Virus record (IMG/VR): IMGVR_UViG_3300037502_003860
Coordinates: 1-38,464 of that record
Strand: one strand, 5' to 3'
From: a virus
DNA: 38,464 nt
Below, one piece after another: positions 4,189 through 36,424 of this stretch (positions are counted from its first letter, which is position 1; every line of letters starts with the position of its first letter). The translations under genes were made by a program, and so were the position numbers. Below the pieces are notes generated by a model. The model searched no databases, was not told where the DNA came from, and worked only from the letters and a program-made list of their open reading frames with translations.

Positions 4189-4223
4189 TCACAGTGTTAG
4201 CATACTATTTTGAAAGGTCATAA

Positions 4224-4988: not shown

Positions 4989-5586
4989 TCTACGCCTCAA
5001 CCTAGGTTGTGGACATCAGCTCTTGGATGGCTATGTCAACATAGACATTGATCCGCTGTTTGGGGCCGACATGGTGTTTGATCTAGAAAAGCCCTGGCCC
5101 CTGGACACCAGCAGTGTGCAGCAGATCATGGCGCACCATGTCATGGAACACCTGGGTGAGACTGTCCATGCCTTTATAGCAGTGATACAGGAAATGTATC
5201 GCGTCAGCGCAGATGGCTGCGAATGGCTCATCACCGTGCCAGATCCCAACAGCGATGTGTTTGGCATAGACCCCACACATGTGCGACGCATCACTCCGGC
5301 TACCATGCGCATGTTTGATCAAGCTGACAACCTACAAGATCTCATGAATCATGGTCACTACACCAAGCTAGGCATGATGCACGGCATAGACGTCGAGGTG
5401 CAAGAAGAAACCGTGTTGCCATTGGAGCCATATCTCAGCAAGCTGCAACGCAACGAAATATCTATCGAAGACCTAGATTTCATGGCGCGCCACTACCGCA
5501 ATGTCGCACAGGAAATATCCATGCGCTGCCGGGTGCATAAACCCCAGAGATACGGCCGGGAGTTCTTGCACAAATTCCGTGGGTGA
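4975..5586 (+). CDS. Class I SAM-dependent methyltransferase, copy 1
   Basis: The 203-residue protein begins at ATG 4975 inside the end of the sulfotransferase-like gene. Motif I of the Rossmann methyltransferase fold is LRLNLGCG at 6-13, followed by the acidic NIDIDP strand near 22-27. HHVMEHLGE and IQEMYRV, near residues 54 and 70, are typical of the methyltransferase type 11 group. It closely resembles the protein at 7543: both share LNLGCG, a VDIDP-like strand, IQEMYRVSA and a C-terminal VHKP. The substrate is unknown; O-methylation of a sugar fits the neighbourhood. Confidence 0.8.
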   Translation: MPGSDLRLNLGCGHQLLDGYVNIDIDPLFGADMVFDLEKPWPLDTSSVQQIMAHHVMEHLGETVHAFIAVIQEMYRVSADGCEWLITVPDPNSDVFGIDPTHVRRITPATMRMFDQADNLQDLMNHGHYTKLGMMHGIDVEVQEETVLPLEPYLSKLQRNEISIEDLDFMARHYRNVAQEISMRCRVHKPQRYGREFLHKFRG

Positions 5587-7542: not shown

Positions 7543-8157
7543 ATGAAACCCGAACACCAAAAACTCAATCTCGGTTGTGGTTACCGCAAGCTCGAAGGAT
7601 TCTGGAACGTTGACATAGATCCAGTGTGCAACCCCGACGAGGTCATTGACCTTGAAGTTTTGCCATGGCCCTATGAAGATGATTTTTTCACCAAGATACA
7701 GGCCAATCTCGTCCTGGAATATCTGGCACCAGACAATCGACTGTTCATGAAAATCATACAGGAGATGTATCGTGTCAGCGCGCCCAAGGCCGAATGGGTC
7801 ATATCCATGCCACATCATCGCTGTGACATGGCCTATGATGACTTCATGCAGGTACGCCGGCTGACTCCTCGTAGTTTCTCGTTTTTCGATCAAAAACGGA
7901 ACTTTGAAGTCACTGCCAAGAAGGTAGGCGAAAGCACATATGGCATGCGCTACAATGTTGATCTAGAAATCGCTGACGTCAACTTTGGAATGATTCCTTA
8001 CTGGAAACAAAAACAAGAAGCTGGATTGATTGGTTCCGCGATGATGGAAGAATACTTGATGACAAAAAACAACGTGGCCGATGTGGTAAATCTGTTTCTC
8101 AAGGTCCACAAACCCGGGAGGTTCATGGATTGGAATCCAGCAGCCAAGCGCCGATAA
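7543..8157 (+). CDS. Class I SAM-dependent methyltransferase, copy 2
   Basis: The 204-residue protein has LNLGCGYRKL near residue 8 (motif I), NVDIDP near 22-27, and IIQEMYRVSAPKAEWVISMP near 68-87. It is a paralogue of the 4975 gene, with the same length, motif spacing and closing VHKPGR. GGAG lies about eight bases before ATG 7543. The first half of the pair follows a GT9 and sulfotransferase; this one directly follows the second GT9. Function is inferred to be methylation of a sugar or glycan intermediate. Confidence 0.8.
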   Translation: MKPEHQKLNLGCGYRKLEGFWNVDIDPVCNPDEVIDLEVLPWPYEDDFFTKIQANLVLEYLAPDNRLFMKIIQEMYRVSAPKAEWVISMPHHRCDMAYDDFMQVRRLTPRSFSFFDQKRNFEVTAKKVGESTYGMRYNVDLEIADVNFGMIPYWKQKQEAGLIGSAMMEEYLMTKNNVADVVNLFLKVHKPGRFMDWNPAAKRR

Positions 8158-8894
8158 CCTGGCCGTTCTATCTCGAAGACCGCGTCAGGCGCAATGTCTT
8201 GGTGCAGACCGACCATGGACTGATGTTGGTCAATCGATTTGACTACAATCAAGACATGGTGGGACAAGGCCGGTGGTTGTTGGATCACGGCAACGTCAGC
8301 ACAGTAGAGGCCAGCATGTGCCTAGGCGCGCTGGCAGATCGTGTCAATCCCGTGGTGTTTGACGTGGGGGCCAACATTGGAACTTTTTGCACTTGGATGG
8401 CCCGAGCACTGCCCCAGGGCCGTGTCTATGCGTTTGAACCCCAGCGTCCGGTGTTCCAGATACTCACAGCCAACATAGCCATCAACAATTTTTACAACGT
8501 CTGGACCTATCCTTGTGCGCTGGGCGCTGAGAACCACACTGTGCAATTCCAGGAGCCGGACTATTTCTCACCGGTAGATTTTGGTATTTTCAGTCTGGTA
8601 CAAGACAAGATACCGGACAAGAGTTCAGTGCAGAACACCGTGGATGTGTTTAGTTTAGATTGGTTTGTGCAACATCACTCAGTGCCCCAGGTAGATCTCA
8701 TCAAGATCGATGCCGAGGGCATGGACCTTGCTGTGTTGGAAGGTGCGCGTGACAACATCGCCCGTTGGCGTCCAGTTATATTCATTGAGCACTGTGACAA
8801 TCAGCGCAGCATCCAGGCCGACATGGAGGCCTGGTTAGCACCCTATGGGTATGGGTTCAGCGTGCAGGGCAATAATCTGTTGGCAGTGATCTGA
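8130..8894 (+). CDS. FkbM-family methyltransferase
   Basis: The 254-residue frame uses TTG 8130 as its earliest start, overlapping the preceding gene by 28 bases; a slightly later start is possible. SAM-binding motif I is VFDVGANIGTF near 75-85, followed by RVYAFEPQRP near 97-106. The FkbM C-terminal signature VDLIKIDAEGMDLAVLEGA lies near 187-205. FkbM enzymes O-methylate sugars, antibiotics or glycan chains. The family call is secure. A third methyltransferase in one operon suggests a multiply methylated glycan. Confidence 0.85.
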   Translation: MESSSQAPITWPFYLEDRVRRNVLVQTDHGLMLVNRFDYNQDMVGQGRWLLDHGNVSTVEASMCLGALADRVNPVVFDVGANIGTFCTWMARALPQGRVYAFEPQRPVFQILTANIAINNFYNVWTYPCALGAENHTVQFQEPDYFSPVDFGIFSLVQDKIPDKSSVQNTVDVFSLDWFVQHHSVPQVDLIKIDAEGMDLAVLEGARDNIARWRPVIFIEHCDNQRSIQADMEAWLAPYGYGFSVQGNNLLAVI

Positions 8895-9745
8895 TGAAAT
8901 CAATACACTTGGTAATGCAGGTATGCGACACACAGTTCTATCAAGTGGAGAATCGTATCTGTGGCACTGATCGTACACTCTTGACCTTGAAGAGCCTCAC
9001 CAGTTTCATGACCAGCGTGCAACAAAGCCATGACTCAAGACTAGATCATCAGTATCACGTGAGATTTGTGTGTGATCGTGTGAGCGCGAGAGTGCAGCAT
9101 TATCTACAGGGGTTGATCGCACAGTATTCTGCCCCTAGGTTATCAATAGACATGGTGGATCTGCCTGCACCTGGCGGCATCGCTGCCAGCATCCGCGACT
9201 GCTATCTGTGGCTGCAAGAACAAGGCCGGGACATCGTGGCACAGTTCCAAGATGATTACATTTTTTTCCCCGAAGCCATCGATGATGCTGTGGACATGTT
9301 TTATCAGGCACAGGAGCAATGCAAATGTGATCCTGTGTTGTCTTTGTTTAATTTCCCAGACTTCTTTCGATATCTCTATCACAACAATTCTGTGCCTAGG
9401 TTGATGGTAGTGGGGCGACACTGTTATTGGGTACAACTTTATGACATAGCATGTGCGATAATGACCAGCCATGCACAATTCTCCCAGCACTGGGATCTCT
9501 ACACAGATTTTTTCTACTTGATAGACCACCGGCGCACGCACGAAAATACCTATCTAGAAAACGCCAGCCTAAATCTCATGTTTACTCGACGTGGAGTACT
9601 GGGCCTACAACCCATCCGGAATCTCAGTCTGCACATGCAGGGCCAGCAGGATTTTGACCCGCATGTGGATTGGCGTCCACTGTGGGACAGCATTGTAATC
9701 TCTGAGGAAAATCATGCAATCACAACTGCAAATGAAACGATTTGA
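8894..9745 (+). CDS. Probable GT-A-fold glycosyltransferase
   Basis: ATG 8894 overlaps the FkbM stop in a TGATG junction. The 283-residue protein shows VAQFQDDYIFF at 115-125, where DD is at the place of a metal-binding DxD-like motif after a beta strand. The DLPAPGG and AASIRDCYLWL segments before it resemble the nucleotide-sugar-binding half of GT2-like enzymes. The C-terminal part has FYLIDHRRTHENTYLENA, compatible with an acceptor-side helix region. I do not recognise a named family; the GT-A call is by pattern and context. Confidence 0.5.
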   Translation: MKSIHLVMQVCDTQFYQVENRICGTDRTLLTLKSLTSFMTSVQQSHDSRLDHQYHVRFVCDRVSARVQHYLQGLIAQYSAPRLSIDMVDLPAPGGIAASIRDCYLWLQEQGRDIVAQFQDDYIFFPEAIDDAVDMFYQAQEQCKCDPVLSLFNFPDFFRYLYHNNSVPRLMVVGRHCYWVQLYDIACAIMTSHAQFSQHWDLYTDFFYLIDHRRTHENTYLENASLNLMFTRRGVLGLQPIRNLSLHMQGQQDFDPHVDWRPLWDSIVISEENHAITTANETI

Positions 9746-10343
9746 CGTGTTTCCCACATCTCTGGTGGTGTTTGACTGGTCCAGTGTGTTTTCTGAGGCC
9801 GATGTAGAAAACATGATATCAGACATAGACGCCATCATAGAAGATGGTCGCCACTTGCAAATCAACGAGCGCACCCCAAGATGGCAGTGCAAACCTATTT
9901 TGTTCAATCCCGAGATAACTCCAGGTCAGCATTGGCAGCGACTGGCCCAGACATTCAGCCAAAGCTGCCATCTCTACACCGAGAACGTGCAAGATTTTTG
10001 CAACAATCAAAATGCTCTGGAACCGGGTGGATTACGAGCATGGTTCTACAAAGGCTACAAAAGCCTCAACGAAACACAGAAAAATCCCTGGCATAATCAT
10101 AGCCCATCATTCCTCAGCGGGGTGTTTTATCTACGTGTACCTGGCGATCACTCTGTGGGAGGCACTGAATTCCGAGATGGGCGAGGACCTGGCATGCGCA
10201 GCATCCGTGACATCGTGATGCTGCCTTATACTCTGTCTTGGACCATATTTCCTGGTTGGATGGACCATCGCAGCAGCCGCGTAGACACCGAAGATCCTAG
10301 ATATGTGATCGCAGCTGATTGTTACATCAAAGTGAGGGCTTGA
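9714..10343 (+). CDS. 2OG-Fe(II) oxygenase, TIGR02466/2OG-FeII_Oxy_5-like
   Basis: This 209-residue protein has the core pattern W-H-N-H-S-P (126-131), followed by LSGVFYLRVPG (134-144). A second metal-ligand candidate is H185 in FPGWMDHRSS, with R196 as a 2-oxoglutarate-binding candidate. This order fits the small phage and bacterial family with WHxH...SGxYYL. Proposed ligands are H127 or H129 and H185. These enzymes hydroxylate or otherwise oxidise a substrate using 2-oxoglutarate; the substrate is unknown. ATG 9714 is chosen over ATG 9732 because GAGG (9704-9707) lies six bases upstream. It overlaps the preceding gene by 32 bases. Confidence 0.7.
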   Translation: MQSQLQMKRFDVFPTSLVVFDWSSVFSEADVENMISDIDAIIEDGRHLQINERTPRWQCKPILFNPEITPGQHWQRLAQTFSQSCHLYTENVQDFCNNQNALEPGGLRAWFYKGYKSLNETQKNPWHNHSPSFLSGVFYLRVPGDHSVGGTEFRDGRGPGMRSIRDIVMLPYTLSWTIFPGWMDHRSSRVDTEDPRYVIAADCYIKVRA

Positions 10344-11035
10344 TGCAGAGCCTGTTGAACCGGCGCGACATGAGTGTGCAGTCGGCCTATGTGATCACGC
10401 TGGAAAACAACGACATCAGCGCTGCCCTGTCCGGTCGATGCCAGGCCAGCTGTGTAGCCATACAACAGGCCGTGACACCGTGGCCCGGGTTTGATGCCAC
10501 CAGCGGCGTGATACAATGTCCACCGCAGTTACAGGATCAGATGTGGTGGCAGTGGATCAAGGTCTACGATCATTTCCAGAGCCCCACCGAAGTGGCCTGC
10601 AGCCTCAGCCACATCAGTCTCTGGGCGCATTGCATGACCATAGACCAACCCATCATCGTGCTGGAACATGATGCTGTGATGACCAAAAAATTACAGCATC
10701 ATAGATTCTACAACACTGTGCAGTATCTGGGTTGTGCCCAACAACGAGAGTTTGACATCGCTCGCGGTGATGCAGTGCCCTGGAGCAGCATCAATCAAAA
10801 CTGGATCTTCATCAATCGGGCGCATGCCTACAGCATCGATCCTGCTGCAGCTCGCCGTTTGTTTGGCATGGTGCTGGAACGCGGTATCTTTGAAAGCCTG
10901 GATGTCATGATCATGGCCGATGCAGTGGCCATAGTCCAAGATGGGGTCTATGCCTATGACGATCCTGTGGGTGTGACCACCATCACTGATCGCAAGCAAA
11001 CTGGACAGCACGGACCCGGAGAGATCCGGATCTAG
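10343..11035 (+). CDS. GT25-family (LPS) glycosyltransferase
   Basis: I choose ATG 10343, which overlaps the previous stop as TGATG, over an upstream TTG. The 230-residue protein starts its fold with SAYVITLENN (14-23). It has the GT25 segment EVACSLSHISLW (83-94) and IIVLEHDAV (104-112), with the EHD acidic motif. GT25 enzymes add galactose or glucose in LPS outer core and capsule synthesis. This is the last gene of the plus-strand glycan operon. Its TAG stop (11033-11035) shares bases with the stop of the opposing SDR gene. Confidence 0.75.
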   Translation: MQSLLNRRDMSVQSAYVITLENNDISAALSGRCQASCVAIQQAVTPWPGFDATSGVIQCPPQLQDQMWWQWIKVYDHFQSPTEVACSLSHISLWAHCMTIDQPIIVLEHDAVMTKKLQHHRFYNTVQYLGCAQQREFDIARGDAVPWSSINQNWIFINRAHAYSIDPAAARRLFGMVLERGIFESLDVMIMADAVAIVQDGVYAYDDPVGVTTITDRKQTGQHGPGEIRI

Positions 11036-11040
11036 ATCTC
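11021..11040. other. Palindrome holding both convergent stop codons
   Basis: GATCTAGATC (11029-11038) is a perfect palindrome. The plus-strand GT25 gene ends in TAG at 11033-11035 and the minus-strand SDR gene ends at 11034-11032, so CTAG (11032-11035) encodes both stops. GAGATC (11021-11026) can also pair with GATCTC (11035-11040). There is no U-tract, so it is not a canonical intrinsic terminator. Confidence 0.6.
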
Positions 11041-11832
11041 GGTGAGCATGCTGTCTATGGCCTGGCGCCAGGTCAGCTGCGGTCGCCAGCCCAGCCTACT
11101 CAGCCGGTCACAGTCCAGGATACAGTCCACTACATCAAAACGAGTTTCCAGCACTGTTTCGCTGCGACTCTGGGTGCGTTCACGCACATAGTCGATGGCC
11201 TGATGGAATCTGATGCTGTGGCCTGACCCTATGTTGTAGATCTTGTTGATCTCGCCCCGTGTGATCACGGTGTCGATGGCGTCACAGGCATCTGACACAT
11301 GCAGGTAATCTCTGAGGAAGTCCCCGCGATTCACCAAGGTTATGGGCTCGTGGTGCCGCAATCTCTGGCTCATGGTGTGCAGGATGTTTTTCTTGGTGCT
11401 GGCTCCGGGATCTTTGGCACCTATGACATTGCACAACCTCAGGATGCGCCAAGGTATGTCATGCACCCTGCAATATTCCATCAATAGCTGCTCGGCAGTG
11501 CGTTTGGTTATGCTGTAAAATCCCTGGGGGTCACAGGGCGCACGTTCGTCCACGGCCTGTCCCACGGCCCCATACACGAACCATGAGCTCACGAAATTGA
11601 ATTCTATGTTGGCCACGGATCGGGCCTGTTCCAAGACCCTGATGAGATGCATGATGTTTACGTCCACATCGATATAGGGATTGGCGGGCAAGTGATGGTT
11701 GTGCGTGGTGCTGATCATGTACAGAACCTTGGGGCCCTGGGGCCGTAGATCATCTCTGGGCTGCAACACAGCACCATGCTGCTGGCGATACCAACTGCCT
11801 AGATAACCGGTGCCACCAAACAAGGTCACCAT
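11032..11832 (-). CDS. SDR NAD(P)-dependent sugar epimerase/reductase
   Basis: Starting at ATG 11832 gives 266 residues that open directly with the Rossmann motif GGTGYLG (6-12). The extended SDR catalytic set is visible: VSSWFVYG (81-88), with S82/S83, then YSITK (106-110), with Y106 and K110. RGDFLRDYLHVSDACDA follows near 180, as in nucleotide-sugar epimerases and 4-ketoreductases. It is a little short for the family (usually 290-340). It overlaps the RfbH-type dehydratase by seven bases, so the best guess is a 4-keto-sugar reductase or epimerase acting on the dehydratase product (compare abequose/paratose synthases). The exact substrate is unproven. Confidence 0.75.
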   Translation of the reverse strand: MVTLFGGTGYLGSWYRQQHGAVLQPRDDLRPQGPKVLYMISTTHNHHLPANPYIDVDVNIMHLIRVLEQARSVANIEFNFVSSWFVYGAVGQAVDERAPCDPQGFYSITKRTAEQLLMEYCRVHDIPWRILRLCNVIGAKDPGASTKKNILHTMSQRLRHHEPITLVNRGDFLRDYLHVSDACDAIDTVITRGEINKIYNIGSGHSIRFHQAIDYVRERTQSRSETVLETRFDVVDCILDCDRLSRLGWRPQLTWRQAIDSMLTEI

Positions 11833-13109
11833 TTCAGCGTGACCTCCTGGATGTAATCCAGCACTGCGGGCGTCCAGCTGGGCGAACAACCCAGGAAAAA
11901 CACACGATCTAGACTGGCATTGGCGTTGGGATATCTGCGGAAATCATCCAGGTGTCGATACGCAGGGTGCAACAAGATGTTGCCGCCAAAGTAATTGCGC
12001 GTCTGCACACGATGGTGCTCAAAATGCGACACCAAGAGATGTTTCTGATCGCGGTCATCGCACAGCAGTGGCGTGCCGAACCAGCTGGGGCTGGCCTGTG
12101 GCAAGGTCTGGACCTGAGGCAGGCCCACGTGCTGGGTCACTGCACGTTCCACCTGTGTTTTGTGCAGTACCCTGCGATCATGTATGGCCCGGAACTTGGT
12201 GAGCTGCACCAAGCCCACGGCGCCCTGTAGATCCAGGGGCTTGAGGTTGTACCCAATGTTGCTGTACACATACTTGTGATCTATCACATCGTCCCAGTCT
12301 GGCAGCCACTCGCTGAAGCGTCGACCGCAGGTGCCACAGGCCAAGGTGTTGGCCCGGCCCACGCAGTAGCAGTCTCGACCCCACCAAGAGATGCTGCGCA
12401 CGGTGTTGATAAAGTCTGCATCGTCACTAGAAACCATGCCTCCCTCGCCGGTGCAGATATGATGTGCGGGATAGAAACTGCAGCTCCAGGCATAATACAG
12501 CTTGGCTATGTGCTGGCCGCGCCACTCAGTGCCGAGACTGTCGCAGTTATCGCCGATCAAGGTGATGCCGTGCTGATCTCGCAGCGCTGTGAGACGATCC
12601 ATGTCGGGAGGATTGCCCAGCACAGGGCTCACGAATATGCCACGGGTGCGAGGGCCAATGGCGGACTCAACTTGATCTAGATCAAAATTCAGGGTATCCA
12701 GCTCGATGTCCACGAACACCGGGCGCAGTCCGTTCTGTATGATGGGCGCTATGGTGGTGGGGAATCCCACGGGGCTCACGATGATCTCGTCGCCGTCCTG
12801 CCAGCCCAGATGTTTTTTCAAGGCAGCCACCATCACGAGATTGGCGCTGCTGCCACTGTTGACCATGTGGCTGTGTGCTGCACCAAACTGCGCGGCAAAT
12901 GCTGTTTGGAATTCTGTGACACGGTCGCCGCTGACGATCCAATTGCCTTGCAAGATGCTGGTGAGCATGGCTTGGATTTCCTGGTGATCCCAATAAGGAC
13001 CGCTGTACAGCACCTGGCTCTGGCCGGGTTGAAAATCTTGGTAATTGGCTAGATATCCGGGCTGGAAAGCTCGTGCTAATTCAGAGAGATCAGGTTTATT
13101 TTGTTCCAT
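11826..13109 (-). CDS. RfbH/E1-type PMP-dependent sugar 3-dehydratase
   Basis: This 427-residue DegT/DnrJ/EryC1-fold protein has the hallmarks of CDP-4-keto-6-deoxyglucose 3-dehydratase, not of an aminotransferase. In SFYPAHHICTGEGG (211-224) a histidine (H216) replaces the lysine that forms the PLP Schiff base. DNCDSLGT (187-194) gives cysteine C189. C247 and C249 in RDCYC, plus C261 in TCGRRF, give the spacing C-x57-C-x-C expected for the [2Fe-2S] ligands of E1. Compared with E1 as I recall it, about four residues are inserted before the last cysteine, and an extra C258 is present. The enzyme removes the 3-hydroxyl on the way to 3,6-dideoxyhexoses and needs a reductase (E3), not seen here. 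It overlaps both neighbours. Confidence 0.85.
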   Translation of the reverse strand: MEQNKPDLSELARAFQPGYLANYQDFQPGQSQVLYSGPYWDHQEIQAMLTSILQGNWIVSGDRVTEFQTAFAAQFGAAHSHMVNSGSSANLVMVAALKKHLGWQDGDEIIVSPVGFPTTIAPIIQNGLRPVFVDIELDTLNFDLDQVESAIGPRTRGIFVSPVLGNPPDMDRLTALRDQHGITLIGDNCDSLGTEWRGQHIAKLYYAWSCSFYPAHHICTGEGGMVSSDDADFINTVRSISWWGRDCYCVGRANTLACGTCGRRFSEWLPDWDDVIDHKYVYSNIGYNLKPLDLQGAVGLVQLTKFRAIHDRRVLHKTQVERAVTQHVGLPQVQTLPQASPSWFGTPLLCDDRDQKHLLVSHFEHHRVQTRNYFGGNILLHPAYRHLDDFRRYPNANASLDRVFFLGCSPSWTPAVLDYIQEVTLKW

Positions 13110-18282: not shown

Positions 18283-18290
18283 AATAAATA
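18283..18290 (+). promoter_or_regulatory. T4-late-type promoter element before gp13
   Basis: AATAAATA, 17 bases before ATG 18308. The predicted start near 18296 leaves room for the ribosome binding site TAGGAG (18297-18302). Confidence 0.55.
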
Positions 18291-21480: not shown

Positions 21481-21517
21481 GGATTCCATAAATATCAGCA
21501 ATAGAAAAAAGGAATCC
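21481..21517 (+). promoter_or_regulatory. T4-late-type promoter before the sheath, framed by an inverted repeat
   Basis: CATAAATA (21487-21494) lies 26 bases before ATG 21521, and AAAGGAA (21508-21514) is the ribosome binding site. GGATTCC (21481-21487) and GGAATCC (21511-21517) form a seven-base inverted repeat around the promoter. Confidence 0.55.
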
Positions 21518-26653: not shown

Positions 26654-27013
26654 ATGAGTTCAGTGAATTTTGAAAATCCCGCCATAGATCAGACCGTGCG
26701 CGTGTTTGATGACTTCTATCGTTATGAAGTCACAGTGCCAGCAGCTCAATACGACATCGTATACAGTTTCTTCCGCGACACCATGCAGAATCAACAGAGC
26801 GCTGGCAATTTTGCTGTGAGCCTGTTCAAAGTGGCCGAAGAGACCGGCATCCCTGCCTTGACCTTGTTGCAAGGATTCCAGGGGCTGGATCAAGTGCAGC
26901 TCAACGCCAATCTCGCTTATTACCTCAATCAGATACGCAGCACCGCGACATTGTTGGGCGTGAGCGTGGCCGTGGTACCCAACTCCTATGCTGCGAGATT
27001 AGTGATACAATGA
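26654..27013 (+). CDS. Small phage protein, probably structural, unknown
   Basis: The 119-residue protein starts two bases after the preceding stop. It has RVFDDFYRYEVTVPAAQYD near 16-34 and YSFFRDTMQ near 37-45. A long, probably helical middle follows, ending in LAYYLNQIRSTATLLGV near 88-104. Similar proteins sit beside tail tube genes in other T4-like aquatic phages as far as I recall. The position between tube-like and head-completion genes suggests a tail or neck assembly role. No enzymatic motif is present. Confidence 0.6.
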   Translation: MSSVNFENPAIDQTVRVFDDFYRYEVTVPAAQYDIVYSFFRDTMQNQQSAGNFAVSLFKVAEETGIPALTLLQGFQGLDQVQLNANLAYYLNQIRSTATLLGVSVAVVPNSYAARLVIQ

Positions 27014-27447
27014 CTCGCTGGGCCAATGGCTCTTATCAACCCATGAACCCTGACAAATACGTGGGACGTAAGTTGCCCCACTATCGTTCAGGATGGGAAC
27101 ACAGCTTCATGAGATTTTGCGATACCAACGATCACATCCTGCAGTGGGCCAGTGAACCCATGACCATACCCTATAGACATCCGCTCACAGGCAAACAAAC
27201 TGTGTATGTGCCGGATTTCCTCATCACATATCGCACCCGTGACAACACCGTGCGCGCAGAACTCATAGAGATCAAGCCCAAGAAACAAAGCATGATCGAA
27301 AGCAAGATGAACAGCCGGGATCGTGCTGTGGTGGCCATCAACTACGCCAAGTGGGATGCGGCCACTCGTTGGTGCAGACAAAATGGTCTGCATTTCCGCG
27401 TCATAACCGAAGATCAGATATTCCATCAAGGCAGCCGTGGTAGATAA
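27010..27447 (+). CDS. 4: gp4-like head completion nuclease
   Basis: ATG 27010 overlaps the previous stop in ATGA. The 145-residue protein has YRSGWEHSFMRFCDTN (25-40), ILQWASEPMTIPYRHP (43-58), YVPDFLI (66-72) and ELIEIKPKKQ (84-93). E30, D69 and E87-x-K89 form the PD-(D/E)xK set of the TnsA-N-like endonuclease fold seen in phage T4 gp4. gp4 acts on packaged heads before tail joining, probably by trimming DNA at the portal. Family call is strong. Confidence 0.85.
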   Translation: MTRWANGSYQPMNPDKYVGRKLPHYRSGWEHSFMRFCDTNDHILQWASEPMTIPYRHPLTGKQTVYVPDFLITYRTRDNTVRAELIEIKPKKQSMIESKMNSRDRAVVAINYAKWDAATRWCRQNGLHFRVITEDQIFHQGSRGR

Positions 27448-27452
27448 CCGCC

Positions 27453-27460
27453 CATAAATA
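27453..27460 (+). promoter_or_regulatory. T4-late-type promoter element before gp16
   Basis: CATAAATA ends four bases before ATG 27465, placing the expected start at the ATG itself. No Shine-Dalgarno sequence at usable spacing is present, so the transcript may be leaderless. Confidence 0.5.
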
Positions 27461-27464
27461 GGGC

Positions 27465-27962
27465 ATGACCCGTAAACTCGAACAACTGTTTGATCTGCCC
27501 ACAGCAGAAGACACCGAAGATGCTGACAGCGTGCGCGCTGATCTCCCAGAACATCTGCCCATCATGCCCAAGACCCTAGAGGCCTTGGACAAGATAGAAA
27601 ACGCCTTGCCACAAGTGCGTGGACTAGAGACTGCTGACGAGGAACTGGATGAGCTGGCACGACTGGCCACTGACAGTTTCAATGACCTGCAGGATCTAGG
27701 CATGCAGGTAGATTCGAGGTTTGCAGCAGAGATATTCTCAGTGGCATCAAACATGCTGGGACATGCCATCACTGCCAAGACCGCCAAGCTGGACAAAAAA
27801 CTCAAGATGATAGATCTGCAGCTCAAAAAGCGCAAACTGGATCTACAGGAACGCGGTGATGAAGAACCTGCAGCACAGATGGGCACAGGCCAGGTGCTGA
27901 GCCGCAATGATCTCTTGGAGAGAATCTTGGCGGGCAACAAGCAAAAAGCCCCAAACGAATAA
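27465..27962 (+). CDS. 16: gp16-like terminase small subunit
   Basis: The 165-residue protein begins MTRKLEQLFDLPTAED, the usual opening of T4-like small terminases. It then has an acidic region, and the helix pair DELARLATDSFNDLQDLGMQ near 63-82. FAAEIFSVASNMLGHAITAK (86-105) and a basic coiled-coil-like KLDKKLKMIDLQLKKRKLDL segment (109-128) follow. T4 gp16 forms rings that recognise DNA and stimulate gp17. Unusually, the gp17 gene does not follow; it lies 6.9 kb downstream. Confidence 0.8.
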   Translation: MTRKLEQLFDLPTAEDTEDADSVRADLPEHLPIMPKTLEALDKIENALPQVRGLETADEELDELARLATDSFNDLQDLGMQVDSRFAAEIFSVASNMLGHAITAKTAKLDKKLKMIDLQLKKRKLDLQERGDEEPAAQMGTGQVLSRNDLLERILAGNKQKAPNE

Positions 27963-27965
27963 ATA
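27958..27965 (+). promoter_or_regulatory. T4-late-type promoter element before the 27985 gene
   Basis: AATAAATA overlaps the gp16 stop and lies 19 bases before ATG 27985. The predicted start near 27971 leaves an AGGA ribosome binding site (27972-27975) in a short leader. Confidence 0.5.
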
Positions 27966-27984: not shown

Positions 27985-28593
27985 ATGAAATCATTCCGCG
28001 ACTACCTAATCGAAAACGAGCGCACATACGACTACAGGATCAAACTGTGTGGTCGTGTGCCGGAAGAACTGATCCGTGCCCTAAAAGCACGTTTTGATCA
28101 GTTTGATCCTGCTCGCATGGGCGATACCAAGACCACACCCATACAGAAGATCCCCACGGATTTTCCCAACTTCCCCAACGAAGCTGTGACCATGTTTGAT
28201 GTGAGTTTCCGTTACCCGGCCATAGAACCACAGATCAAACAACTGGCGCAACTTCTCAACTTTGACCCCAACCGTGTGGTCATGCAAACACAGAAGTACG
28301 TGGATGGCATGGTACAGGAGATGGATCGGATCGCGGAAGAAAACAAAGATCTTCTCACTGACACCGACTATCCTGCGCCCGATGCTGAACAACGTGCGCT
28401 GAAGAAAGACTACTCAGCGCCATCGCATGATCACGTGGTTCTGAAAAACGCCTACCGCACTGATTTCACCGTGGCCGGTGGCAACACTCCTGCTGCCAAG
28501 ACCACCAATGATCTACCACAGGGAACCAAAGGTCCCATGTACAAGATCAACAGACCACCCAAGCCTGCCACAGGCGCCCAACCCCGAGGATAA
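27985..28593 (+). CDS. Putative capsid-targeted protein, N-terminus like T4 internal proteins
   Basis: ATG 27985 gives 202 residues beginning MKSFRDYLIENE. This strongly resembles the T4 capsid-targeting sequence (MKTYQEFIAE as I recall it), and L-I-E fits the prohead protease site (L/I)-x-E. The middle has KIPTDFPNFPNEAVTMFDVS near 52-71 and QIKQLAQLLNFDPNRVV near 79-95, looking like a compact alpha-beta domain. The tail is Pro/Lys-rich. It is the first gene of the block between the terminase genes. A head-internal or core role is inferred from the N-terminus only. Confidence 0.6.
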   Translation: MKSFRDYLIENERTYDYRIKLCGRVPEELIRALKARFDQFDPARMGDTKTTPIQKIPTDFPNFPNEAVTMFDVSFRYPAIEPQIKQLAQLLNFDPNRVVMQTQKYVDGMVQEMDRIAEENKDLLTDTDYPAPDAEQRALKKDYSAPSHDHVVLKNAYRTDFTVAGGNTPAAKTTNDLPQGTKGPMYKINRPPKPATGAQPRG

Positions 28594-28596
28594 GCC

Positions 28597-30525
28597 ATGA
28601 CATTTTTTTACGATCTCAACAAAAAGCTCGCAGATCTAGCTGCGAAATCACAACCGCAGACACTGAACGAAGGTCGCGAAGAAGTTTACCGAGAGTACCA
28701 AGGCGATGTCCAAGAGAAGTGGGACACAGAGACCAAGGTCAGCCCCGAAGAAAAAGGCAAATATCAGGGCAAGAGCAAGGCTGAGCTGCAGAAGCAGTAC
28801 AATGCTCTCAAGGCCCGCGGACCGCACAAAAAAGGGTCTCCAGACTTTGGCAAGATGCGTGAACTGGCATTTGCTATCCGTGCCAAGAGTGGCTGGGGCA
28901 AAGTCAGCGAAGATCCCAACGAAGGCAACGAGTTTTCAGGCGAGCTGGCCAAAGCGCGTGCCTCGGGCCAAAAAGAGTTTGAAGTTGATGGCAAAGAGTA
29001 TCCCGTGAAAGAAGCCGCTAAGAAAGACAAAGCCCCTTGGCCTGGCAGTGCTGAATACAAAGAAAAATTTGGCCAAGATCGTGAAAGTTTCCGTAAGAAG
29101 CATGCGCCCAGCGTGATGAAAGATCCCAAAGGCCGTGAGGAACTAGCCAAACTCGACACTGAGTACGAAGCCGGCAAGAAGAGCTATGGCCGCGACGAAG
29201 AGGGTGATGACGAAGAAGGTGATAAAAAAGCCAAACCCGCGGGCGAAAAACGTGGCCGCGGTCGTCCCAAAGGTTCTAAGCGTGCCATTGGCGCCAAAGG
29301 TCCTTCGGGCAAAAGCAAGCTCTTGACTCGCGAAGACTACGACAAAGACGAGTACGACGAAGAGGGTGAGATGGCTATGAGCCAGGCCCGCACCATCGAA
29401 GACGCTGCAGAAGAACTGCAAAGCATCCTAGATGCCGACGAGAATCTTCCAGAGTGGGTGCAGAAAAAGATCAGCTTGGCTAAAGAATATATCGACTCTG
29501 CGCGTGATTATCTCAAGGCCAACCGTCCCGAAGACGAGATGATGGCCGAGAAAGCTGTGAGCAAAGCCCAACGTGCTGCTGCTGGCATTGCACGAGCTGC
29601 ACAAAAGGGCGAGATTCCCAAGTCGGAGCTGCGTGGTGCTTCAAAGGAAATGGCCCGGATGGAGCCCAAGGAATTGCGCAAGTTCGCCAAGACCAAAGAA
29701 AAAGGTCTGCCTGAGAAAATAAAGGAAGTTGACACAGGTGAAGCCGATGCTCGCAAGACCGTGCCCGCCAGCAAAGATCAGCAAGACCAAACTTTTGCCC
29801 GGCATCGTGAGCGAGCTGCCAAAGAAAAACAAGATCACGACAAAGAGAAACCAGTCAAAGAAACCACCACAGCTGGTTCAGTGGCCACTGCTCCGGCCGA
29901 GGGCGGCAAAAAAAGCAAGGGCGGCATGCAGTTTGGCAAAGGCATCTATGACAGCATGAATCGCGAAGTCGAGGCCATGATCTCTGAGAGCATGAACGTC
30001 AGCATCAACATGAACACTGATGCGCACGGCGGCCCCAGCAAGAGTGTAACTGTCACGGCCACTGACGAAGATGCAGAAAAATTAGCAGAATTGCTGCGCA
30101 TGGCCGGCATGGCACAGGGCAGCGACAGCGGTGTTTGTTCCGCGTGCGGTAAGCGCGGTTGTGGTTGTGGTGGTGAGCAAGTGGACGAAAACAAGCCTGA
30201 TTGGCCCACCAACACCGAAACCAGCAACGATGCCCTGCAGTATTCTGGTGGACTCAACAAACCCAAGGCCACAGGGCAGACCACTGTGCCCGTGATCGCC
30301 AGCCAGGCGGATCGGCAGCATGCCTACGAGGGCGATGATGAACTGCGTCGACTGCGTGAGCGTGCAGGTATCTTTGCTGAAGCCAAGAAAAAACCTGACT
30401 TCTTGGACATGGACAAAGATGGTGACAAATCCGAGCCCATGAGCAAGGCCATCAAGGACAAAGAATCCAAGGTGGACGAAGCCGTGGAGGGAAGCCTGTG
30501 GAATCTCTACAAGAGGCTGCAGTGA
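28597..30525 (+). CDS. Large charged, AT-hook-bearing phage protein
   Basis: The 642-residue protein starts MTFFYDLNKKLADLAAK, an N-terminus I know from unnamed marine T4-like phage proteins. It is very rich in Lys, Glu and Asp. KRGRGRPKGSKR (218-229) is a textbook AT-hook with core RGRP. LPEWVQKKISLAKEYIDSA (284-302) and SINMNTDA...ATDEDAEKLAELLRMAGM (469-506) are modules shared with other phage proteins. C514, C517, C522 and C524 could bind a metal. DMDKDGD (604-610) is EF-hand-like. A packaged DNA-binding or head-core protein is plausible; the function is not established. Confidence 0.65.
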   Translation: MTFFYDLNKKLADLAAKSQPQTLNEGREEVYREYQGDVQEKWDTETKVSPEEKGKYQGKSKAELQKQYNALKARGPHKKGSPDFGKMRELAFAIRAKSGWGKVSEDPNEGNEFSGELAKARASGQKEFEVDGKEYPVKEAAKKDKAPWPGSAEYKEKFGQDRESFRKKHAPSVMKDPKGREELAKLDTEYEAGKKSYGRDEEGDDEEGDKKAKPAGEKRGRGRPKGSKRAIGAKGPSGKSKLLTREDYDKDEYDEEGEMAMSQARTIEDAAEELQSILDADENLPEWVQKKISLAKEYIDSARDYLKANRPEDEMMAEKAVSKAQRAAAGIARAAQKGEIPKSELRGASKEMARMEPKELRKFAKTKEKGLPEKIKEVDTGEADARKTVPASKDQQDQTFARHRERAAKEKQDHDKEKPVKETTTAGSVATAPAEGGKKSKGGMQFGKGIYDSMNREVEAMISESMNVSINMNTDAHGGPSKSVTVTATDEDAEKLAELLRMAGMAQGSDSGVCSACGKRGCGCGGEQVDENKPDWPTNTETSNDALQYSGGLNKPKATGQTTVPVIASQADRQHAYEGDDELRRLRERAGIFAEAKKKPDFLDMDKDGDKSEPMSKAIKDKESKVDEAVEGSLWNLYKRLQ

Positions 30526-30977
30526 TGAAAGGTCTCCGGGAATACATCACAGAGTCAGAGCAATGGATTGATTCGCCCGTGGCGGGCGATGACTTTGCCA
30601 TCAACATCCGTGAAGATGTGCTCTTGGAGACCTACATCCTAGAAGCTGACGATGACCGCATATTGCTGGCCTCGGATGATGAGTTAGTCACTGTGCTGGA
30701 AGAATACGGCATGCTGGATGAACTGGAGCCCTTGGACGAAGCTGAATACCGCGGACGCAAGGTTCCCTTGGGCAAGCCCATGGCAGGTGACGTGAAAAAA
30801 CGCAAGGTCTATGTGCGCAAGCCCAACGGCAATGTTGTCAAGGTTGAGTTTGGTGACAAAACCATGCGCATCAAGAAATCAAACCCCAAACGCAGAAAGA
30901 GTTTCCGTGCTCGCCACAACTGTGCCAATCCTGGCCCACGCTGGAAAGCACGATACTGGAGCTGCAGGGCCTGGTGA
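30525..30977 (+). CDS. Putative capsid-targeted protein with basic ARHNC module
   Basis: ATG 30525 overlaps the previous stop (TGATG), giving 150 residues. It opens MKGLREYITESE, again close to a T4 capsid-targeting sequence with an I-T-E cleavage site. An acidic stretch (about 20-85) is followed by a basic C-terminal module: VYVRKPNGNVVKVEFGDKTM, then RRKSFRARHNC and GPRWKARYWSCRAW at the end. This module is widespread in aquatic phage proteins in my recollection and may bind nucleic acid or metal through H/C residues. Cys occurs at ARHNCANPG and YWSC. Confidence 0.65.
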   Translation: MKGLREYITESEQWIDSPVAGDDFAINIREDVLLETYILEADDDRILLASDDELVTVLEEYGMLDELEPLDEAEYRGRKVPLGKPMAGDVKKRKVYVRKPNGNVVKVEFGDKTMRIKKSNPKRRKSFRARHNCANPGPRWKARYWSCRAW

Positions 30978-30978
30978 T

Positions 30979-31143
30979 ATGCTGAAGATACTCACAGAAC
31001 TGGTCAATGAACGCCGGCGTTATCCCGGCGCGCCGCCCGTGAATCAACCTACACCAGCCAAAAAACCACAGAACCTGCGACGTGAGCCCAGGGCCGTGGA
31101 CATACAACGCCAATACAACACGCAATCAGGAGCAAAACGATGA
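30979..31143 (+). CDS. Small basic protein, 54 residues
   Basis: ATG 30979 follows the previous stop by one base and the stop TGA 31141-31143 overlaps the next ATG. It begins MLKILTELVNERRRYPG and is rich in Arg, Lys, Pro and Gln. The tight fit between its neighbours supports it as a real gene, though no motif is seen and a longer out-of-place frame also exists here. Possibly a head-associated accessory protein. Confidence 0.45.
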   Translation: MLKILTELVNERRRYPGAPPVNQPTPAKKPQNLRREPRAVDIQRQYNTQSGAKR

Positions 31144-31427
31144 GCGCAAACGTCTATACCACACTGGCCAATGCCGTGGTCTACACCGACAAACTCCGGG
31201 TGAGCACCGGTGCCAGCACAGTGACATATCAAGTCTATGCCGTGGAATTGGGTGGTGCCGCTGCTGTGGGTAATCTCTATTCAGCGCCCATACAGATCCC
31301 AGCCAACACCACACGTGATCTTTACAGTGGTGCCGGCAACCGCGTAACCATCACCGGCAGCAGTTGGACCGCGCTGGAACTGGGCACAGCTAGCTCGGCT
31401 ACTGCCAGCATATATCCTCCGGGCTAA
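31140..31427 (+). CDS. Small beta-rich protein, possibly decoration-like
   Basis: The 95-residue protein starts at ATG 31140, overlapping the preceding stop, with CAGGAG seven bases or so upstream. It is rich in Thr, Ala, Val, Ser and Gly: TYQVYAVELGGAAAVGNLYS near 28-47, then IQIPANTTRDLYSGAGNRVT. It has alternating beta pattern and no charged core, as in small head or tail decoration proteins. It has no recognised family; a virion role is inferred from location. Confidence 0.55.
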   Translation: MSANVYTTLANAVVYTDKLRVSTGASTVTYQVYAVELGGAAAVGNLYSAPIQIPANTTRDLYSGAGNRVTITGSSWTALELGTASSATASIYPPG

Positions 31428-31433
31428 TGATCA

Positions 31434-31805
31434 ATGCGAGCCCGAGAGTTTATTGCAGAAATACGCAATGCCCGCATAACCAAACGTCAACAAAGTGGCA
31501 CGCGTGGTCTGCATATCTTTGGCGACGGTGAACGTTGGAACGGTGACTACACCTTAAATCGTGTGGGCATGGCTGCAGCAGCCACTGACGGTCGCACCAT
31601 GCCTGAAATCAATGCCAAGAGCTGGGTGGGCAAGCACAAGACCGCGCACCCATATACTCCCGAGGAAGCGGCCATGCTGAAGATGGCATACCGAGCTGTG
31701 GGTGCAGATTATCATGACATAAATGGTGGAGATCTCGACAGCGAAGAACCTCCCGGTGGCAACGGCCACAGTCCCATCCAAGCATTCCGAGGATATCCCA
31801 GATGA
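31434..31805 (+). CDS. MRAREF-family phage protein, copy 1
   Basis: The 123-residue protein begins MRAREFIAEIRN and ends with IQAFRGYPR, as does its neighbour at 31802. The N-terminus also resembles a capsid-targeting sequence, with I-A-E as a possible prohead protease site. The middle includes YNRVGMAAA-like and PYTPEEAAMLKMAYRAVGAD segments. I recall families starting MRAREF in marine T4-like phages. No enzymatic motif is visible. The two tandem copies overlap by four bases. Confidence 0.6.
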   Translation: MRAREFIAEIRNARITKRQQSGTRGLHIFGDGERWNGDYTLNRVGMAAAATDGRTMPEINAKSWVGKHKTAHPYTPEEAAMLKMAYRAVGADYHDINGGDLDSEEPPGGNGHSPIQAFRGYPR

Positions 31806-32188
31806 GAGCCCGAGAGTTCCTGCGCGAAGAGCGAGAACTACCGCCTGAGATATCTGAACCTCTGCGGTACACCTATGTATTGCCAGGTCTCAGTGCTGCT
31901 GATCCCTACAAAAACTATCGCATGGGTGTAGCGGTGGCACGAGCACGCAGCGATGCCCGGCCCGACGATGTCAACCCCAATCGTCCGGCCTGGAGCGCAG
32001 AAACGGCGTTTGGTGAACATGCTGTTATTTCCGGAGTCAACGATTCAGTAGACCCCATCATAGATCAGGCCTTGGCCATGACTCGCACACCCGGCGGCAA
32101 GCGCCTGGTCAGTAGTGCTGCCAGCGAAGAGCCAGCTGCAACCAACGCTCGCAGTCTATTGAAACCATTTCGAGGATACCCCCGATGA
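31802..32188 (+). CDS. MRAREF-family phage protein, copy 2
   Basis: The 128-residue protein begins MRAREFLREERE and ends KPFRGYPR, like copy 1. Between these ends are AADPYKNYRMGVAVARARSD near 32-51 and HAVISGVNDSVDPIIDQAL near 73-91. L-R-E after position 7 could be a prohead protease site. It is joined to copy 1 by an ATGA overlap and to the next gene by another four-base overlap. It is probably a diverged duplicate; function is unknown. Confidence 0.6.
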   Translation: MRAREFLREERELPPEISEPLRYTYVLPGLSAADPYKNYRMGVAVARARSDARPDDVNPNRPAWSAETAFGEHAVISGVNDSVDPIIDQALAMTRTPGGKRLVSSAASEEPAATNARSLLKPFRGYPR

Positions 32189-34371: not shown

Positions 34372-34815
34372 ATGCGAGCAATCTTTGCAACCGTCTTAGT
34401 ATACTGTGCCATGTTGGGTGCAGCAGTGGCACAGAAGCAACCCACCGGCGTCACCTACGACACCACTATCATACGTGTGAGTGATGGAGACACCATAGTC
34501 ATAGCTGCCCCTTACCTCCCACAGCCTCTGAAACCCGAACTGGCTGTGCGTATCTATGGTGTGGACACACCAGAAAAAGGACACCGTGCTCAGTGCGCGT
34601 CAGAAGCACAGCGTGGCGAACAAGCCTCGCAGTGGACCAAAAATCTAGTGAGCCGTGGCAAGCGATTCCAGGTCACGCTGTACACCTGGGACAAGTTTGG
34701 TGGTCGTGTGCTGGGCGACATCATAGTAGACGGCAAGAGCGTGCGTGAAGGACTCATAGCAGCGGGCCTGGCCCGGGCGTACTTCGGCGACAAAAAGCAG
34801 AGCTGGTGCGAATAA
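34372..34815 (+). CDS. Exported thermonuclease (SNase-like)
   Basis: ATG 34372 follows GGAG (34363-34366). The 147-residue protein opens with a signal peptide (about 1-21, hydrophobic LVYCAMLGAAVAQ, cleavage near AVAQ). All staphylococcal nuclease catalytic positions are present: D40 in SDGDT, R60, D65 and E68 in RIYGVDTPE, and R112 in GGRVLG. SNase cleaves DNA and RNA with Ca2+. The Sec signal predicts export to the periplasm or outside. It lies between the fibre-like protein and terminase. A role in clearing or degrading extracellular or periplasmic DNA, or in entry, is speculative. Confidence 0.8.
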   Translation: MRAIFATVLVYCAMLGAAVAQKQPTGVTYDTTIIRVSDGDTIVIAAPYLPQPLKPELAVRIYGVDTPEKGHRAQCASEAQRGEQASQWTKNLVSRGKRFQVTLYTWDKFGGRVLGDIIVDGKSVREGLIAAGLARAYFGDKKQSWCE

Positions 34816-34846: not shown

Positions 34847-36424
34847 ATGCAAGGCGTGAAAAGTCACTTAGAAACCCAGCTGGTAAAACCGCCACACCGG
34901 CGGCAGACCTATACTGAAAGCGAACTAGAACAGTTCATGCTGTGTGCGGATCCGGAGACCGGACCCATATACTTCATGGACAACTTCTTCTACATACAGC
35001 ACCCCACACGCGGCAAGATGCTGTATCATCCGTTTGAATTCCAGCGCCGGCTCATCGAAACCTATCACAACTATCGCTACAGCATCAGCCTCATGCCCAG
35101 GCAGACCGGCAAGTCAACTTCGGCCGCAGGGTATCTGCTGTGGTATGCCATGTTCGTGCCAGACTCAACCATACTCATAGCTGCGCACAAATACACCGGT
35201 GCCCAGGAGATCATGCAGCGCATACGCTATGCCTATGAGCTGTGTCCCAATCACATACGCGCCGGCGCCACCAGTTACAACAAAGGTTCGATAGAGTTTG
35301 AAAACGGCAGCCGCATCGTGAGCCAGACCACCACAGAGACCACGGGACGGGGCATGTCAATATCGCTGCTGTACTGTGACGAGTTCGCGTTCGTGAGGCC
35401 TACCATAGCCCGGGAATTCTGGACTAGTATCTCGCCCACGCTGAGCACCGGTGGTAAAGCCATCATCACATCTACACCCAACTCAGACGAGGACATGTTC
35501 GCATTCCTGTGGAAAGGTGCCAACAAGACCCTGGACGAACACGGCAACACCATGGAGCTGGGACGCAATGGATTCCGCGCCTACCGGGCCTACTGGCGCG
35601 AGCACCCCGATCGCGACGATGTCTGGGCCGCAGAGCAGCGCCAGCAGCTGGGCGAAGATCGTTTCCGCAGGGAGATGGACTGCGAATTCATCATCAACGA
35701 CGAGACCTTGATTGCTCCGGCAAAACTCCTGGATCTCGAGCCCCGTGAGCCCTTGAGGAAAACCGCACAGGTGCGCTGGTATGAACCCATCATAGCAGGA
35801 CGAATGTATGTGGTGAGCCTGGATCCCAGCCTTGGCACCGGCGGAGACCCCGCGGCCATCGAAGTGTTTGACGCCAACACCACCACACAGGTAGCAGAGT
35901 GGCGTGACAATCGCGCCACCATACCGGATCAAGTGCGCATCCTGGCCGACATCGTCAAAGAGCTGCATGCCACGGTGCGCGATGACAAGATGATCTACTA
36001 CAGCATCGAAAACAATACCATAGGCGAGGCTGCTCTGATCTCTATCGCAGAATACGGTGAAGAGAACATACCAGGCTATTTCCTGTCAGACAACAGCGTG
36101 GTAGGGCAGCGCAGATTCCGCAAGGGATTCAACACCACGCCCAAGGCCAAGCTCACGGCCTGTGCCAAGTTCAAGATGCTGATTGAAAGCGGACGCATGA
36201 CCGTGAGCAGCCGTGCCCTGATCTCGGAACTCAAGACCTTCGTGGCACACGGCGTGAGCTATGCTGCCAAACCCGGTGAGACCGATGATCTCGTCATGAG
36301 CACACTGCTGGCAGTGCGCATGATGTTGCTGCTGCAGAGCTATCACACCGAAATCGACTCGCAGCTCAAAGATCACGGTGATGTGGTCATAGAACCCATG
36401 CCCTTTATCAGCGTGTTACGGTAA
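34847..36424 (+). CDS. 17: gp17-like terminase large subunit
   Basis: The 525-residue protein has both motor and nuclease domains. ATPase: Walker A PRQTGKST (84-91), Walker B LLYCDEF (174-180), coupling motif TSTPN (208-212). The RNase H-like nuclease carries D326 in VSLDPSLG, E388 in YSIENN and D481 in ETDDLV, matching the three acidic residues of T4 gp17. It packages DNA into proheads and cuts concatemers. It is shorter than T4 gp17 (610) mainly at the N-terminus. A late-type promoter precedes it and the gene ends within the promoter of the next gene. Confidence 0.92.
   Translation: MQGVKSHLETQLVKPPHRRQTYTESELEQFMLCADPETGPIYFMDNFFYIQHPTRGKMLYHPFEFQRRLIETYHNYRYSISLMPRQTGKSTSAAGYLLWYAMFVPDSTILIAAHKYTGAQEIMQRIRYAYELCPNHIRAGATSYNKGSIEFENGSRIVSQTTTETTGRGMSISLLYCDEFAFVRPTIAREFWTSISPTLSTGGKAIITSTPNSDEDMFAFLWKGANKTLDEHGNTMELGRNGFRAYRAYWREHPDRDDVWAAEQRQQLGEDRFRREMDCEFIINDETLIAPAKLLDLEPREPLRKTAQVRWYEPIIAGRMYVVSLDPSLGTGGDPAAIEVFDANTTTQVAEWRDNRATIPDQVRILADIVKELHATVRDDKMIYYSIENNTIGEAALISIAEYGEENIPGYFLSDNSVVGQRRFRKGFNTTPKAKLTACAKFKMLIESGRMTVSSRALISELKTFVAHGVSYAAKPGETDDLVMSTLLAVRMMLLLQSYHTEIDSQLKDHGDVVIEPMPFISVLR

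Follow-up and report, generated by a model that had tools for sequence, protein, structure and literature searches.

Candidate capsid-targeting propeptides of the T4 kind in a gene block of a probable jumbo T4-superfamily phage

Introduction

Internal proteins (IPs) that phage T4 injects inhibit the restriction enzymes of the host (PMC12373910). In the capsid-targeting tag of IPIII, residues 4 and 7 mainly set targeting and residues 8 and 10 set processing; the gp21 protease has the specificity L/I-x-E, and a T4 tag with Asp at position 10 is blocked in processing and keeps its targeting (PMC9026906). Work on this capsid-targeting sequence has so far centred on T-even phages. In this regard, we analysed a stretch of 38,464 nucleotides (nt), the IMG/VR record IMGVR_UViG_3300037502_003860, which is a fragment of a virus genome and is called the window below. 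An original prediction had noted four proteins at 27985-32188 of the window whose N-termini resemble the T4 tag, and had proposed that they may form a set of injected or internal head proteins. Its T4 premises are sound, since ipII and ipIII in AF158101 do start with MKTYQEFIAE (ipI starts differently, with MKTFKEFTSTTTPVSTITE) and cutting by gp21 after (L/I)-x-E agrees with the published specificity (PMC9026906).

The genes of the block are named F1, F4, F3, F6, F2a and F2b in map order, and F0 is the gene at 27465. Our best explanation, to which we assign a probability of roughly 0.78, is that the N-termini of F1, F3, F2a and F2b (9-10 residues), together with a longer form in F4 (25 residues), serve as T4-type capsid-targeting propeptides for prohead docking, release by a gp21-type protease and probable ejection. 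Five lines of evidence carry this reading: near-invariant tags on unrelated bodies, a gp21-type protease with a matching gp23 site in the relatives, a late-promoter-like box, the detection of a phage PA5oct homologue in the virion, and the enrichment of the tag among detected S-CREM2 proteins outside the annotated structural set. They support the protease-cut propeptides that had been proposed, with cleavage after the Glu as the predicted outcome.

Results

Tagged N-termini in the window

The features on which the observation rests are as follows.

27985..28593, + strand, F1, 202 amino acids (aa), tag and ferredoxin-like (S6-like) domain; phrog_14802, virion structural protein, homologue of PA5oct EST35_0202
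27985..28014, + strand, F1 tag MKSFRDYLIE, conserved in 42 homologues
28597..30525, + strand, F4, 642 aa, charged and modular (DUF3008 module); homologues of 565-1412 aa
28597..28671, + strand, F4 long propeptide-like N-terminus MTFFYDLNKKL...TLNE, site at residue 25
30525..30977, + strand, F3, 150 aa, tag, variable middle and basic C-terminal module; phrog_7595
30525..30554, + strand, F3 tag MKGLREYITE, matched by a corresponding tag in nearly every homologue whose 5' end is complete
30732..30974, + strand, F3 basic C-terminal module, residues 70-150 (...SFRARHNC...ARYWSCRAW), isoelectric point (pI) 11.1, charge ~+19
31434..31805, + strand, F2a, 123 aa, C-terminus FRGYPR
31434..31460, + strand, F2a tag MRAREFIAE, 9 residues
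31802..32188, + strand, F2b, 128 aa, paralogue of F2a, C-terminus FRGYPR
31802..31828, + strand, F2b tag MRAREFLRE, 9 residues

All four predicted N-termini were found in place, namely MKSFRDYLIE at 27985, MKGLREYITE at 30525, MRAREFIAE at 31434 and MRAREFLRE at 31802. The program had called the F1 open reading frame (ORF) from 27907, while homology starts only at the ATG at 27985, and the F3 start is an internal ATG of an ORF called from GTG 30498. The original prediction had regarded the I/L-x-E as suitably placed in all four; F1 and F3 fit all T4 positions, whereas F2a and F2b fit three and are one residue shorter. Specifically, F1 has Phe-4 and Tyr-7 as targeting residues and Leu-8 and Glu-10 (LIE) as the gp21 site, F3 has Leu-4 and Tyr-7 with Ile-8 and Glu-10 (ITE), and in both families the targeting residues are conserved in the homologues.

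Across the loci of relatives, we counted a strict T4-rule motif, M..[hydrophobic]..[FYW][LI].E, and a looser one, M.{3,7}[FYW][LI].E (that is, M-x(3-7)-[FYW]-[LI]-x-E). The strict motif was present at 99/2534 first ATGs versus 0/12547 internal ATGs, and the looser motif at 191/2534 versus 41/12547. Among the relatives' genes, 214/267 in the F1, F2 and F3 families carried the looser motif, compared with 8/2313 others; from the latter rate, 0.15 carriers would be expected by chance in the window's 42 called genes, with P(>=4) ~1.7e-5. In the window, the looser motif was found in F1, F3, F2a and F2b only. Two of the eight outside carriers (MKSFRDYLDET at 13067 of locus L163 and MKTLMEYIQELE at 10284 of locus L142) lie directly after F4, which is F3's place elsewhere, and we infer that the 53 family genes without the motif mostly have Val before x-E, are partial or have mis-called starts. 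These counts confirm that the four-tag observation is real and beyond chance.

A very improbable alternative, already disfavoured, is chance or shared ancestry, in which such N-termini are common amphipathic starts and F2a and F2b are mere duplicates. The two F2 proteins are indeed paralogues, and [LI]-x-E matches at 8.7% of internal ATGs when no aromatic residue is required. However, with the aromatic residue the internal rate is 0.3% and the window P is ~2e-5, and clustering keeps the bodies of F1, F2 and F3 apart, so that three unrelated families stand behind one near-invariant tag. The conservation of the F2 N-terminus, described below, also stands against it.

The tag residues are kept mostly through varying codons, the exception being Lys-2 of F1, which is nearly always AAA. 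Since the codons of constant residues vary, selection acts on the protein, and we rejected a nucleotide-level constraint as the cause of the conservation for most tag residues. A scan of HTVC008M with the strict motif gave almost nothing, with looser forms such as MLSFTGYSNLSE in some genes; therefore, even within Kyanoviridae the strict motif does not hold throughout.

The F1 and F2 families

Among the 42 F1 homologues, Met-1, Tyr-7 and Glu-10 of the tag are invariant, and Lys-2, Phe-4 and Leu-8 are kept in at least 90%. The F1 model (predicted local distance difference test score, pLDDT, 71.7) consists of a lower-confidence short helix at residues 4-10, a ferredoxin-like domain and a low-confidence C-terminus. 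In a fold search, the domain could be aligned to ribosomal protein S6, starting near residue 14 (best Z 8.4, 7% identity); a function cannot be read from this fold, because the arrangement is very common. The F1 homologue of PA5oct is annotated as detected in virions by electrospray ionization tandem mass spectrometry (ESI-MS/MS). As a side observation, the F1 homologue of Agrobacterium phage Atu_ph07 (locus L004, 12001-12756) has an annotated start at 12088 that is probably 29 codons late, and from the ATG at 12001 it reads MKTLQDYLTESKK, which fits the F1 family.

In 97 non-redundant F2 proteins, the N-terminus is M-R-A-x-[ED]-F-[IVL]-x-E almost without exception (Phe in 96/97, Glu-9 in 96/97). 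Compared with the T4 pattern, the tag is one residue shorter, and Phe-6, [IVL]-7 and Glu-9 are near-invariant. The N-terminal ten residues rank 2 of 114 segments in conservation, and the C-terminus, S-P-[VI]-x-x-F-x-G-Y-P-R, is almost as constant as the tag. The bodies form two paralogue groups, F2a and F2b sharing 25% identity, and the F2 copy number ranges from 1 to 4. The F2 loci were gathered through terminase and F1 searches; tblastn with F2 against isolate phages gave no match, and a single-protein scan of viral contigs gave no relatives. A pattern search of one alignment (A2) was dropped, as the alignment was too diverse for use. The F2 model had no match in the viral fold library, and sequence matches in the PDB were at chance level only. 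In the F2a model, the first ten residues have a pLDDT of 51 versus 81 overall, and two longer helices are confident. The F1 and F2 models appear to fit a removable tag ahead of a domain, as models rather than proof.

The F3 and F4 families

The original prediction of diverse cargo, including one basic module, was borne out by the protein at 30525, whose C-terminal module has a charge of ~+19 and a pI of ~11. The F3 homologues range from ~105 to 757 aa, and nearly all complete ones start with MK-x-[FL]-x-x-[YH]-[ILM]-x-E and have the same basic module at the end, which is common to many marine phages. A Pfam search of the long middles of these homologues found no domain. F3 is missing in many relatives.

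Besides the four N-termini of the original set, there is a fifth, that of F4 at 28597-30525, which had been missed. The F4 homologues start with M-[ST]-F-F-[YH]-[DN]-L-N-K-[KR]-L, followed by a variable spacer and then [LI]-x-E, which lies at residues 18-28 in 52/53 homologues versus 8.8% in 11-residue segments elsewhere in the same proteins. Past this site, the sequence varies between phages (RDMSRAAKGYEKYG..., RDEGKPGKNFAKIAK..., GTHTQHAMDLN...). From its sequence, the F4 N-terminus looks like a second, longer propeptide before a string of shuffled modules. It is unlike MKTYQEFIAE, is longer than ~20 residues and has only [LI]-x-E in common with the T4-type tag; it may work like one, though we do not file it as a member. 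T4 IPI, in which I-T-E ends at residue 19, may set a precedent for tags of greater length. The F3 basic module and an AT-hook-like stretch in F4 (RGRGRPKGS) hint at possible nucleic-acid binding. Separately, the C-termini of F4 (30430-30525 in the window) and its homologues have a common tail, approximately [KV]-V-[DE]-E-S-[IL]-x(6)-W-x-x-Y, which might be another site for the protease or serve in interactions.

Maturation machinery of the relatives and a late-promoter-like box

The gp21-type protease (PF03420) and gp23 (PF07068) are each present in 15/17 related records. A 349 kb relative has a T4-like order of portal-like, acidic gp67-like, gp21, scaffold-like and gp23 genes, in which the portal, gp67 and scaffold names are putative, being given by position and composition. 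In the relatives, gp23 has [KR]YLKE|NAS[AS]G aligned with T4 SFLTE|AEIGG as its presumed cut site, and gp21 itself starts with MSSRYLRE or MARYLQE, of which RYLRE/RYLQE resembles the tag. Judged by [KR]YLKE of gp23 and RYLRE/RYLQE of gp21, cleavage of the major capsid protein is expected at [YF]-L-x-E, which the predicted F1 tag has as well. A strict-motif scan of the 349 kb relative flagged few genes at their starts, namely those of the protease, F1 and both F2, besides a few that look like chance.

A late-promoter-like box lies upstream of F1.

27959..27965, + strand, ATAAATA, T4-type late-promoter-like box, 20 bp before the F1 ATG

TAAATA was found within 45 bp upstream of the F1 start in 103/103 loci, at a median of 17 bp from the ATG, with NATAAATA in 95. 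The controls were 0/162 for F2, 3/64 for F4, 2/77 for F6 and 1.85% for random 45-mers. ATAAATA occurs four times in the window, always on the + strand (18284-18290, 21488-21494, 27454-27460 and 27959-27965) and each time shortly upstream of a structural gene, F0 or F1, as expected of T4-type late promoters. At the sequence level, the 103/103 boxes before F1 point to the late expression expected of T4-type internal head proteins, and F1-F4-(F3)-F6-F2-F2 can be read as one T4-type late operon.

These results bear on an unlikely alternative, namely that the N-termini are interface helices of ordinary head, neck or tail structural proteins, with neither targeting nor cleavage. It would account for the synteny of F1 with head-completion and tail genes, the MKSFRDY that PA5oct keeps without the Glu, and the short helix at residues 4-10 of the F1 model. 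It does not readily account for the same N-terminus on unrelated bodies, whose constant Glu agrees with the gp23 cut site in position and surroundings, for the disorder modelled in residues 1-10 of F2, or for N-termini of the same kind on enzymes of related phages, as follows.

Tagged proteins in virions of related phages

The published virion proteome of cyanophage S-CREM2 contains 52 proteins, of which 24 are annotated as structural (PMC10665884). For this phage, the motif was widened to V and M beside L/I, at positions up to 10. Outside the annotated structural set, the tag was present on 4/28 detected versus 2/167 undetected proteins (Fisher p 0.0043). The four tagged and detected proteins (OR473000, loci L249-L252) are listed below.

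3837-5081, S-adenosylmethionine (SAM) hydrolase, MKDFDSFLEE
10310-10546, small protein gp13, MKDLHSFLTE
10579-12846, APH/ChoK-like kinase, MKRFDAFLTE
124608-125468, cytidylyltransferase, MKNFSSFLTE

Two detected near-matches were left uncounted: gp136 (MQTFSMFFSE) and the Cas9-like nuclease gp12 (7704-10313), which has RFASFMAEA ~17 residues in. The tags may explain the virion presence of the SAM hydrolase, gp13, the kinase and the cytidylyltransferase. In S-SZBM1, the sole enzyme listed from the virion is a cytidylyltransferase that starts with MRFRQFIIEA, a nine-residue form like MRAREFIAE. A Melnitz protein (locus L006, 14914-16866) starts with MKKFSEIIEA and has a cytidylyltransferase domain fused to an F3-type basic module. 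We also noted a C48C1 cytidylyltransferase-like protein (locus L002, 15325-16734) which reads a tag-like MIKNFSQYLLEE when its start is taken at a GTG that precedes the annotated ATG.

The strongest competing explanation, possible though well behind in our estimate, is that targeting and processing take place as we propose, while the proteins themselves serve in assembly or in the core (as T4 gp67, gp68 and gp22 do) and are degraded or retained, with no injection. Nearly all relatives have F1 and F4 in a fixed order, a pattern not seen with accessory internal proteins. The large, charged F4 is built of modules and contains several additional [LIV]-x-E sites, and in PA5oct the F1 homologue counts among the virion structural proteins. 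On the other hand, an F2 copy number of 1-4 and an often absent, length-variable F3 are as expected of accessory cargo, and the tagged cyanophage proteins include enzymes.

Genomic context of the block

The window has T4-type structural genes for a head-tail adaptor, deoxynucleoside monophosphate (dNMP) kinase, tail sheath (1097 aa), tail tubes, gp4-type head completion protein and gp17-type terminase. The adaptor, dNMP kinase, sheath, tubes, gp4, a small protein and F1 have a similar order in Erwinia phage Kaldavass and partly in PA5oct. The remaining features around the block are as follows.

27010..27447, + strand, gp4-type head completion protein, upstream of the block; phrog_218
31140..31427, + strand, F6, 95 aa, conserved operon member without a tag
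34847..36424, + strand, gp17-type terminase large subunit, downstream of the block; PF03237

Some of the relatives that were found by terminase and F1 are contigs of 250-349 kb, and the window therefore most likely belongs to a jumbo T4-superfamily lineage. F1-F4-(F3)-F6-F2-F2 is the commonest gene order among the relatives. PADLOC found no defence-related profile in the block, and neither did NCBIfam in the window proteins. Elsewhere in the window, a 962 aa protein (61-2949) matches RCC1-like ('regulator of chromosome condensation') phage families, and a Staphylococcal-nuclease-like protein (34372-34815, PF00565) has a start, MRAIFATVLVYCAMLGAAVAQ, that resembles a signal peptide. The relatives repeatedly have genes for exported nucleases of about this size (MKKLL...ALAQ) at the same place.

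Discussion

We propose that the block would be transcribed late from the TATAAATA-like promoter and that the tag would dock each protein on the scaffolding core of the prohead. On completion of the prohead, the gp21-type protease, encoded outside the fragment, would cut after [LIV]-x-E and free the mature protein inside the head, and DNA would then be packed around the freed proteins. The variable members (the F2 paralogues, F3 and F4) would most likely be ejected with the DNA and act on the host or on incoming DNA; one possible role of F2 and F3, by analogy with the T4 IPs, is inhibition of restriction endonucleases. F1, conserved across the clade, may instead stay in the head as one of its components and not be injected. 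The original prediction is supported in part, by the tag and by the machinery and virion evidence of relatives. For the window's phage, we infer docking, cleavage, internal location and injection.

Several observations weigh against the propeptide reading. The window lacks gp21, gp22 and gp23, and the virion evidence comes from relatives. At residue 3, which corresponds to T4 position 4, the F2 tag has Ala in place of the aromatic residue of T4, and Val replaces L/I before x-E in 25/97 F2 homologues. The S-CREM2 numbers are small and raw for protein size and abundance, and the authors of that proteome allow for co-purification (PMC10665884). Finally, the distant F1 homologues of PA5oct and Kaldavass are without [LI]-x-E, PA5oct keeping MKSFRDY without the Glu and Kaldavass having Asp there; a lost processing site need not mean lost packaging, because Asp-10 in the T4 tag blocks processing and not targeting.

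The principle is already known from the T4 capsid-targeting sequence, and what is new here is the members. In the literature searched, with most subscription journals outside it, we found no description of these members, of the nine- and 25-residue variants or of the gp23-matched site in this clade, and no link from the tag to virion-associated cyanophage enzymes; 'capsid targeting sequence' and 'cyanophage' occurred together in a T4 review only. Our results suggest that the window's phage, an aquatic relative of T4, and many of its own relatives pack extra proteins, probably for delivery to the host with the DNA. We lean slightly towards a wider proposal, in which aquatic T4-superfamily phages, from cyanophages to jumbo phages, have a common capsid-targeting code, approximately M-[KR]-x(1-4)-[FYL]-x-x-[FY]-[LIV]-x-E with nine- and 25-residue variants, marking a large swappable set of head-packaged proteins that includes a nicotinamide mononucleotide adenylyltransferase (NMNAT)-like cytidylyltransferase, a SAM hydrolase and kinases. 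If this code is true, the packaged protein set of such phages could be read from N-termini alone. If the tag works here, it would give a sequence rule for listing which proteins abundant uncultured aquatic phages pack in their heads and probably inject, and would help to settle the doubt in two cyanophage papers on whether virion enzymes are packaged or co-purified. A working tag would also provide a means of loading proteins into other phage heads.

Comparison with known systems

Like T4 IPI, IPII and IPIII, the window proteins have a short hydrophobic/aromatic N-terminal tag with a terminal [LI]-x-E on unrelated proteins, late expression (here as the box only) and a gp21-type protease in the lineage. 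In contrast to the T4 proteins, their bodies are unrelated to the IPs, the F2 tag has 9 residues with Ala, the F4 N-terminus is longer and of another sequence, and packaging, cleavage and injection are predicted. The ejection proteins of phiKZ and SPN3US are likewise packaged in the head and released by a gp21-related protease, whereas their propeptides are mostly >100 residues (PMC5694885 for SPN3US) compared with 9-27 in the window, which places the window proteins outside that group. The virion enzymes of S-CREM2 and S-SZBM1 differ in having known enzyme folds, while the window proteins are without a known enzymatic domain; the N-terminal tag is of the same kind in both. The virion structural proteins EST35_0202 of PA5oct and phrog_14802 are homologous to F1 from residue 1 and occupy the same place after the gp4-type gene; the PA5oct N-terminus, MKSFRDYYDAS, has targeting-type residues and no [LI]-x-E.

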